32,355 bases of DNA from Deltaproteobacteria bacterium (GTDB lineage Bacteria; Desulfobacterota; Binatia; UBA9968). Both the position numbers and the translations under genes were made by a program. Position 1 is the stretch's first letter. Each line of letters opens with the position of its first letter. This document shows positions 28,064 through 30,782 of this stretch, in pieces. The stretch covers positions 1 through 32,355 of the forward strand of contig JAUYJC010000208.1 in assembly GCA_030688735.1 (NCBI GenBank), read 5' to 3'. Under the pieces are notes generated by a model that saw only the letters and a program-made list of their open reading frames with translations, was not told the DNA's origin and did no database searches.

Positions 28064-28918
28064 TTAGCGAAAAAGCGCCGCCGCCAGCTCGGAGCGGAAT
28101 CGATCCGTGAGCGCATGGTCCGATCCCAGCACTTCGAAAATTTGCACCATGGCCTTGCGCGCCCCGTCGCCTTGAAACCCGCGGTCGGTCTTGACGACGG
28201 TGAGAAACTCCGCGAGCGCTTCTTCGTAATTTTCCCTGGCGGCCAAGCCTTGGGCGAGATTGAACCTCGCTTCGAGGTCATCCGGATTCGCCTTGACCGC
28301 GGCTCTGAGCGCCGCCACGTTCTGATCCCCGCCCTCCTGAAGTTTCAGTCTTGCGATCAGAGGATCGGCTTCTTTTCGCTCTTCGGCGACGAGAGAAATT
28401 TTATCCAGATAACTCAATGCGGTTTCGGGGTCGCCTTCGTTCATCAGAAGGCGGCCGATACCCAGGAGCGCCTTGGCGTGATTCGGATCGGAATCTAGAA
28501 TAGTCTGGTAAATCGTTTTCGCTTGATCGCTTTTGCCTTCCCGTTCAAGTAGCGCCGCCTGTTGTGCCCGCTTATCGGCGTCCGAAGGCAGGAAACGGGA
28601 AAGAAACTCGCGCACCGCGGGTTCCGGCAAGGCGCCGGTGAACTCCGATGTGATCTGGCCATCGCGGAAAAGTTTTACCGCCGGTATCCCCTGGATGCCC
28701 AGGGCACCCGCCAGCGAAGGACTCTCGTCGACGTTGACTTTGGCGAGAACGAAATCGCCCGCGTACTCTTCCGCGAGTTTTTCCAAAACCGGACCGAGGA
28801 CGCGGCAGGGCGCGCACCAGGGCGCCCAGAAATCCACCAGCACTGGAACTTCCAGCGAGCGGCCCAAAACCGCCGCTTCGAATTCCGCCTCGCTGACCTC
28901 GATCGTCCACTGATTCAT
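28064..28918 (-). CDS. YbbN/CnoX-type thioredoxin-TPR protein
   Basis: VLVDFWAPWCAPCRVLGPVLEKLAEEY, GIQGIPAVKLFRDGQ, followed by a TPR-like C-terminal region. ATG at 28918 preferred over the track's 28933. Confidence 0.9.
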   Translation of the reverse strand: MNQWTIEVSEAEFEAAVLGRSLEVPVLVDFWAPWCAPCRVLGPVLEKLAEEYAGDFVLAKVNVDESPSLAGALGIQGIPAVKLFRDGQITSEFTGALPEPAVREFLSRFLPSDADKRAQQAALLEREGKSDQAKTIYQTILDSDPNHAKALLGIGRLLMNEGDPETALSYLDKISLVAEERKEADPLIARLKLQEGGDQNVAALRAAVKANPDDLEARFNLAQGLAARENYEEALAEFLTVVKTDRGFQGDGARKAMVQIFEVLGSDHALTDRFRSELAAALFR

Positions 28919-28940
28919 ATCTGGTCCACGCAACTATTCT

Positions 28941-29142
28941 TTTACCACGAAGCTCCTAGCGTCGCATAGCCGCAACCGAAAGCCGGAAGATCTCCCGCAA
29001 AGACGCCAAGGCGCAAAGGTAAAAACTAAGAATTTCCGAACTTGGCGACTTGGCGCGAAAAATCTTCCTTCGTGACCTTCGTGCCTTCGTGGTGAAAACT
29101 GTCTTTTGGTTGCGGCTTTGCCGCGCTGGGCCTTCGTGGCGA
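28941..29142. repeat. Nested palindromic intergenic element; right half is dispersed-repeat copy B
   Basis: TTTACCACGAAG (28941) and AGCCGCAACCGAAAG (28968) versus CTTTTGGTTGCGGCT (29103) and CTTCGTGG (29131). Confidence 0.65.
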
Positions 29143-29145
29143 GAC

Positions 29146-29643
29146 TTATTTCCGTTTTGCAAACGAGTCCGGATCGAACGGCGCGCCGTTGAGCGTGAAC
29201 GTCCGCTCGACGGGCGTCGGTTTGAGAATCGTCTGCATCACGTAGCAGCCCGCTTCGGCGTTGCGCACGACCATGGCGACCTTATCCGCGGGCTCCTTGG
29301 ACGTGAGTTCGCACCGGGTCTCGAAGCCCACCCCTTCCGCTTGAACCGTTTCGCGCAGCACCGAGCCTTCGCTCTTGAAGCGCGCGGTGACGAAGACCTT
29401 GGCCTTATCGATGTGGGTCTTGAGCATTTCCCCGTACCGGGAAATTTGCGTGAGCAGTCAAAACGCCAGCGACAAGCCGAAGTAGGCCAGCGGCGGCGGC
29501 GCCGAATTATCCCCGCCGACGCGCTCCCCTTCATCGCAGTAAACCGTGAAGCCGCGAGCGTGCCCTTCCTTGCGCATCCGCTCCAGCGTCTCTGCATCCG
29601 CCTCTAAAACGATTTCCCGCTTTACCTGGATGTCTTCCGCCAT
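29146..29643 (-). CDS. OsmC-family protein with an in-frame TGA at codon 62; candidate selenoprotein
   Basis: The two track ORFs (29458..29643 and 29146..29427) are in the same frame, separated only by TGA (29460-29458) plus ten open codons. Readthrough: MAEDIQVKREIVLEADAETLERMRKEGHARGFTVYCDEGERVGGDNSAPPPLAYFGLSLAF[U]LLTQISRYGEMLKTHIDKAKVFVTARFKSEGSVLRETVQAEGVGFETRCELTSKEPADKVAMVVRNAEAGCYVMQTILKPTPVERTFTLNGAPFDPDSFAKRK. GAGGGGGG SD upstream of the ATG. Confidence 0.8.
29426..29449 (-). promoter_or_regulatory. Candidate bacterial SECIS element
   Basis: Minus strand: TGA-CTGCTCACGCAA-ATTTCCC-GGTACG-GGGAAAT-GC. Perfect 7-bp stem, 6-nt loop starting GGU, loop 19 nt after the UGA, plus a possible GC/GC extension past a 2-nt A bulge. 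Confidence 0.7.
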
Positions 29644-29699
29644 ATACCCCCCTCAAATCGGTTTTCCATTTTCATAGCCGAGACCGAAGCGATAGGCAA

Positions 29700-30782
29700 T
29701 CAACCGCGCTGTTCTTTCCGGTTCGCCGCATATCCCTCCATGTAGAGATCGAGAAGCGCCGCGAGCAAGGCGAACAAAACCGGGCCGAGCACGAATCCCA
29801 ACGCGCCAAATACCGCCAAGCCGCCGAGAATGCCGAAGAACAAAAACATGATGGGAAGTTTAAGCCGAGCGCCGATAAACATTGGCTTTAAAACATTATC
29901 CACCGTGCCCACCACGCCGATGGACCATACCAACAACAGGATTCCACTGAGCGTGTCCCCGTGGAGAAAAAGGAAGATCGAGGCCGGCACCGAGACAAGG
30001 GTCGTTCCACCCACCGGCAAGAGCGCGGCAAACGCCGTGACCACGCCCCAGAGAATGGAGTAGGGAACCCCAAAAAACCAATAAGCCAGGCCAGCCAGCA
30101 GTCCTTGAACCATGGCGACCACCAGGCAGCCATGCACCACCCCGGAAATGGAATTGGCGATATTACGGAACAGCCGTTCTTGATGCTCCTGGTCCATGGG
30201 CAGCAATCGCCGCAGCCGAAGCGAAAACTCCGCCCCATCGCGCAAAAAGAAAAACATCGTAATGAGCACGATGACGAAATTGGCGACAAACAGAAAAATG
30301 TTTTGCGCCACACCGGTTACCTGCGACAGCAAAACGCCCGAAGAAACCTTCGCGCCTTGAACCACCAGTTCTTTCCAATTGATTTGGAACTCAAAACCGG
30401 CGAGCCTCACTCCCAACAGGCCCCACCAACTAAGTAATTTCTGAACCCAGGGTTTCTGTTGCCAGATTTCCACGCCTTCAGCGCTTACCAAAGTGCCCAC
30501 GGATTTCACCACCTCGACGATTTCCTCCGATAAGAAACCGACGAGCCGCAAACCCGGCAAAATGATGATCAGGGCGATAACTACAGTGATGATCAGCGCC
30601 GTCACAGTCGCTTTACCGCGCAAAATCTTGAGGAGCCAGGAGTAGACTGGATACACCAAGACAGCGAAAATCGCCGCCCAAGTGATCGCTTTAAGGAACG
30701 GACTCAAAATCAAAAACGCGCCGTAGAGGATGACGGCCAAGAGCGCAAAGAAAAATGCGGTCACGAGCCAGTTCTGGTTCAA
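29700..30782 (-). CDS. AI-2E family transporter (UPF0118/PerM)
   Basis: 360 aa; multiple TM helices; AITWAAIFAVLVYPVYSWLLKI; ALLPVGGTTLVSVPASIFLFLHGD; LKPMFIGARLKLPIMFLFFGILGGLAVFGALGFVLGPVLFAL. Confidence 0.9.
   Translation of the reverse strand: MNQNWLVTAFFFALLAVILYGAFLILSPFLKAITWAAIFAVLVYPVYSWLLKILRGKATVTALIITVVIALIIILPGLRLVGFLSEEIVEVVKSVGTLVSAEGVEIWQQKPWVQKLLSWWGLLGVRLAGFEFQINWKELVVQGAKVSSGVLLSQVTGVAQNIFLFVANFVIVLITMFFFLRDGAEFSLRLRRLLPMDQEHQERLFRNIANSISGVVHGCLVVAMVQGLLAGLAYWFFGVPYSILWGVVTAFAALLPVGGTTLVSVPASIFLFLHGDTLSGILLLVWSIGVVGTVDNVLKPMFIGARLKLPIMFLFFGILGGLAVFGALGFVLGPVLFALLAALLDLYMEGYAANRKEQRG

Follow-up and report, generated by a model that had tools for sequence, protein, structure and literature searches.

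The locus studied here raises the question of whether an in-frame TGA inside an OsmC-type gene of an uncultured bacterium marks the end of the protein or is read as an amino acid. The window, that is, the whole stretch of DNA analysed, is 32,355 nucleotides long and comes from a genome labelled Deltaproteobacteria bacterium. It contains 23 places in which a TGA is flanked by at least 60 open codons on each side (the OsmC gene and 22 others), so a TGA with open flanks is commonplace here and an in-frame TGA alone means little; five other in-frame TGA candidates of the window were screened and gave no Pfam match. What chance does not explain in the OsmC gene is that homology extends on both sides of the TGA and that the TGA is kept in every close relative. 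The gene and its two redox codons are as follows:

29146 to 29643, minus strand: predicted OsmC-like selenoprotein gene, 165 aa, coordinates including the stop codon
29458 to 29460, minus strand: in-frame TGA (U62), at the alignment position of the peroxidatic Cys in OsmC/Ohr
29245 to 29247, minus strand: codon of C133, the conserved second redox position (AEAGCYVMQ) and proposed resolving Cys, identical in 23/23 aligned proteins

When TGA is translated as U, the gene yields a single protein with zero further internal stops, and a Shine-Dalgarno-like stretch, TTTGAGGGGGGTATATG, precedes the start ATG at 29643. The TGA (29460-29458 in the direction of the gene) is codon 62, in the context APPPLAYFGLSLAF-U-LLTQISRYGEML, and U62-L-L-T65 forms a UxxT motif at the catalytic position. 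The readthrough protein matches the Pfam family OsmC (PF02566, 7.1e-11) over residues 44-146, spanning the TGA, and the NCBIfam family NF041052 (8.4e-51, 171.7 bits against a cut-off of 95) over positions 2-144 of the 144 in the profile, which is a full-length match. A first-pass annotation, made from the sequence alone, had described a single in-frame TGA in an otherwise intact OsmC-like gene, and this description holds.

The AlphaFold model of the window protein has a pLDDT of 88.8, and its top PDB fold matches are all OsmC/Ohr proteins. In the model, residue 62 lies within the helix of residues 51-73, and C133 is located between two helices. U62 had been placed at the start of the central helix; the predicted structure agrees on the helix, but puts the residue about a dozen positions into it. 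The first-pass annotation had also pointed to a second Cys retained downstream, which would form with U a pair mirroring the two-Cys redox pair of the family. Position 62 (U or C), C133, D37, P51, Y54 and N152 are invariant in an alignment of 23 proteins, and 3cje, the nearest solved OsmC-like structure by sequence, has Cys at both aligned positions (62 and 133). The OsmC fold and the two redox positions by which OsmC/Ohr hydroperoxide reductases are recognised are present, with the putative Sec at the first of them.

By analogy with the OsmC/Ohr family, we infer a peroxidase activity for the protein, together with its substrate and its reductant. A selenoprotein of this fold might instead perform another thiol or selenol redox job, for example in persulphide or disulphide metabolism. 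Many OsmC-like proteins, including 3cje, are named solely from structure or homology, and the published accounts of the UxxT family report no tested function. However, the protein retains both redox positions of the OsmC/Ohr peroxidases and its fold matches belong to OsmC/Ohr; we consider a non-peroxidase role less likely, though a serious possibility. A selenium-dependent thiol peroxidase is the reading that we prefer.

Conservation of the TGA was followed at two scales. In 85,462 species genomes scanned, 19 relatives were recovered, and in 19/19 the codon corresponding to U62 is a TGA. Three of these relatives come from Chloroflexi MAGs and are 55-60% identical to the window protein, the others being labelled Deltaproteobacteria or Candidatus Binatia; the Chloroflexi sequences hint at horizontal transfer or at a wide distribution. 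Among 145 genomes of the class, 63 matches lie above the NF041052 cut-off, 58 with the TGA and 5 without it, and the latter carry Cys at the aligned position, in the context GFCM(F/L)(S/T)Q. The exchange of Sec and Cys at this position was seen in a paralogous clade, termed clade B, where Sec predominates and Cys occurs in five genomes. In the window gene's own (UxxT) clade, the class-level matches that span the site all carry TGA, and a Cys member was not found among them. An aligned Cys in homologues and the recurrence of the TGA elsewhere had been proposed as checks; homologues and 3cje do have the Cys, and the TGA is found again in other, independent MAGs as well as in a single-contig genome. 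Comparison of these sequences shows the TGA to behave as a retained sense codon that exchanges with Cys.

A second element that would be needed for recoding lies just after the TGA:

29427 to 29445, minus strand: SECIS-like hairpin, beginning 12 nt after the TGA, with a stem of at most 8 pairs and the apical loop GUA, of which GU is invariant

Across 52 distinct Sec sequences, the stem, 13-31 nt after the TGA, has up to 8 pairs and closes a loop of three bases that always starts with GU. Pairing of the stem is kept despite clade-specific sequences (UUUCCC/GGGGAA, UGACGC/GCGUCG and GUCC/GGAC). Standard pairs occupy 85.3% of cells, compared with 66.8% in shuffles; the stem has 61 two-sided changes (20.6 in shuffles) and a covariation of 0.423 (0.138 in shuffles; 0/500). 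Since shuffles do not preserve relatedness, more weight is given to registers slid by 1-3 columns, in which covariation is at most 0.176, and to a synonymous-codon null with the protein fixed, in which 6.8 pairs were observed and 4.6 expected (p = 0.007 for the window sequence alone). Folded by itself, the window hairpin has a stability only slightly above that of shuffles (z = -1.45); the folding of a single sequence is weak evidence, and the alignment and codon-null tests were used for this reason. In the Cys homologues the GU loop is absent at this position or the stem is eroded, even when the surrounding amino acids are near-identical. An alternative register of the hairpin (offsets summing to 43) suits the UxxT clade but not clade B, and was discarded in favour of register 42, which suits all. 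A search of 29100-29700 against Rfam returned no SECIS family, only two sub-threshold chance matches to snoRNAs. The first-pass annotation had suggested looking for a bacterial SECIS, and the hairpin found here has the features of one: it is a stem-loop that closely follows the UGA, and its small apical loop contains a G. The comparison across Sec sequences shows a SECIS-like hairpin that is under selection.

These results bear on the possibility that the TGA is a nonsense mutation, real or artefactual, in an ordinary Cys-type OsmC gene. The window belongs to a fragmented MAG, TGA is one base away from TGC and TGT, and some of the relatives' paralogues bear extra TAG stops or frameshifts, all of which would fit a pseudogene or a sequencing error. 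The recurrence of the TGA contradicts this explanation: it stands at the same codon in every one of the independent public relatives and in most members of the family in the class, the downstream frame is intact, the second Cys is conserved and the hairpin covaries. We therefore reject a pseudogene or sequencing error as very improbable.

The host genome (634 contigs, 90% complete) carries the genes for selenocysteine synthesis and insertion:

C482:1372-2709: selA, 608 bits, above the curated cut-off
C482:2902-4788: selB, 420 bits, above the curated cut-off
C482:5001-5927: selD, 387 bits, above the curated cut-off
C271:3886-3976: tRNA-Sec with UCA anticodon, 74.2 bits against a cut-off of 47

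The first three are clustered on one contig and, with the tRNA-Sec as selC, all four genes that the first-pass annotation had proposed to search for are present. In the host SelD, too, an in-frame TGA occupies the catalytic site (VKAAG-U-AAK), which is a second, independent case of recoding in this genome. More widely, selA occurs in 120/145 class genomes, and a genome assembled as a single contig of 4.2 Mb (G072) contains two Sec-OsmC genes together with selA, tRNA-Sec and a TGA-bearing selD. In four carriers of the TGA gene (G001, G099, G114 and G127), selB above the cut-off was not found; a strong selA match was not found in G001, G099 and G127, and G114 has a partial selA. tRNA-Sec was not found in G001, G114 and G127, and is present in G099. 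Thus G001 and G127 have an intact TGA gene, with selA, over-cut-off selB and tRNA-Sec all not found. Missing contigs fit these absences, and one missing contig could explain most of them because the sel genes are clustered; they could also reflect a recent loss of Sec use. A genome-wide reassignment of TGA, for example to Trp or Gly, would make codon 62 an ordinary residue and would also keep the frame open, but it is rejected as having a negligible probability, given that the other window genes read intact with table 11, none of them requiring a sense TGA, that the genome has complete Sec machinery, and that the aligned residue in TGA-less homologues is Cys, never Trp or Gly.

The sel machinery, the conservation of the TGA, the covarying hairpin and the aligned Cys in homologues all favour the selenoprotein reading first proposed for this gene. 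UGA recoding is strongly supported by these sequence comparisons, and the TGA almost certainly encodes selenocysteine at the active site. We are highly confident that the product of the gene is a thiol peroxidase with the OsmC fold, in which Sec (U62), inserted at UGA through SelB and the hairpin, serves as the peroxidatic residue. SelB with Sec-tRNA-Sec would recognise the hairpin, with its GUA loop, immediately 3' of the UGA, and Sec would be inserted at this codon in place of termination. In the protein, the selenolate of U62 would attack and reduce a peroxide, probably an organic hydroperoxide, C133 would resolve the resulting selenenic acid to a selenenylsulphide, and a dithiol donor would reduce the latter, regenerating the enzyme. 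The gene is a clean case of UGA recoding, in which standard annotation would truncate the protein at codon 61.

A candidate for the dithiol donor is encoded next to the OsmC gene:

28064 to 28933, minus strand: thioredoxin (WCAPC)-TPR gene, downstream on the same strand, a conserved neighbour

In the window, the two genes lie about 210 bases apart. In the class search, the thioredoxin-TPR gene lies downstream in at least 22/29 relatives' loci, a lower bound because these loci are short. It is possible that the thioredoxin-TPR protein is the reductant of the OsmC selenoprotein. On the upstream side of the OsmC gene there is an AI-2E transporter gene.

The window gene is not the only one of its kind in the host genome, which has a second Sec-OsmC gene, of clade B and with the motif UMFS, at C270:4044-4475. 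This gene has its own SECIS-like hairpin. At least two Sec-OsmC paralogues occur in many genomes of the lineage, and in G114 (C205) and G118 (C581) two Sec-OsmC genes are adjacent on the same strand, the second copy being about 36-38% identical to the window protein. In some Sec-OsmC paralogues a frameshift or a further stop (TAG or TAA) accompanies the conserved TGA, which suggests decaying copies or assembly errors. We propose, tentatively and with rather more doubt than assurance, that the OsmC selenoproteins have expanded in this lineage to form two or more clades (UxxT and UxxS), that switches between Sec and Cys in clade B were accompanied by loss of its SECIS, and that the UxxT clade and the thioredoxin-TPR protein form a Sec-dependent peroxide-detoxifying pair. 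Clade B, with Sec in some close relatives and Cys in others, offers a natural comparison of what Sec adds to OsmC enzymes.

The first-pass annotation regarded OsmC-like selenoproteins as precedented, which is true and even understated, as there is a curated NCBIfam family and a published UxxT motif. Zhang et al. (2005; PMC1088965) described three such sequences from the Sargasso Sea (COG1765, UxxT), the Global Ocean Sampling yielded five, reported in 2008 (PMC2398784), and the family is listed in reviews (PMC9312934, PMC13188914). A search of the literature combining Binatota and selenocysteine gave only a methane-cycling study of sponge microbiomes. The window gene belongs to the family known since 2005, with which, as far as the published descriptions of the Sargasso sequences go, it shares the OsmC domain, a Sec in place of the catalytic Cys, the U-x-x-T motif (here U-L-L-T) and a bacterial SECIS directly after the UGA with a G in the small apical loop. 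No defining feature distinguishes it from NF041052 (OsmC_like_Se, 'OsmC-related (seleno)protein'), which it matches over its full length. In relation to OsmC and Ohr of E. coli, the fold (Foldseek prob 1.00) and the two redox positions are the same, whereas identity is about 13-16% by structural alignment, Sec replaces the peroxidatic Cys and the context is UxxT. The first published OsmC-like selenoproteins came from marine metagenomes, while the window gene belongs to a lineage known mostly from groundwater, soil and sediment MAGs (Deltaproteobacteria/Candidatus Binatia), in which many genomes have at least two Sec-OsmC genes. Less familiar are these multiple paralogues, the Sec/Cys exchange inside one paralogue clade and the thioredoxin-TPR gene conserved on the downstream side. 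With the window gene, a family whose first known members were marine metagenome sequences extends to a groundwater, soil and sediment lineage with complete Sec machinery.
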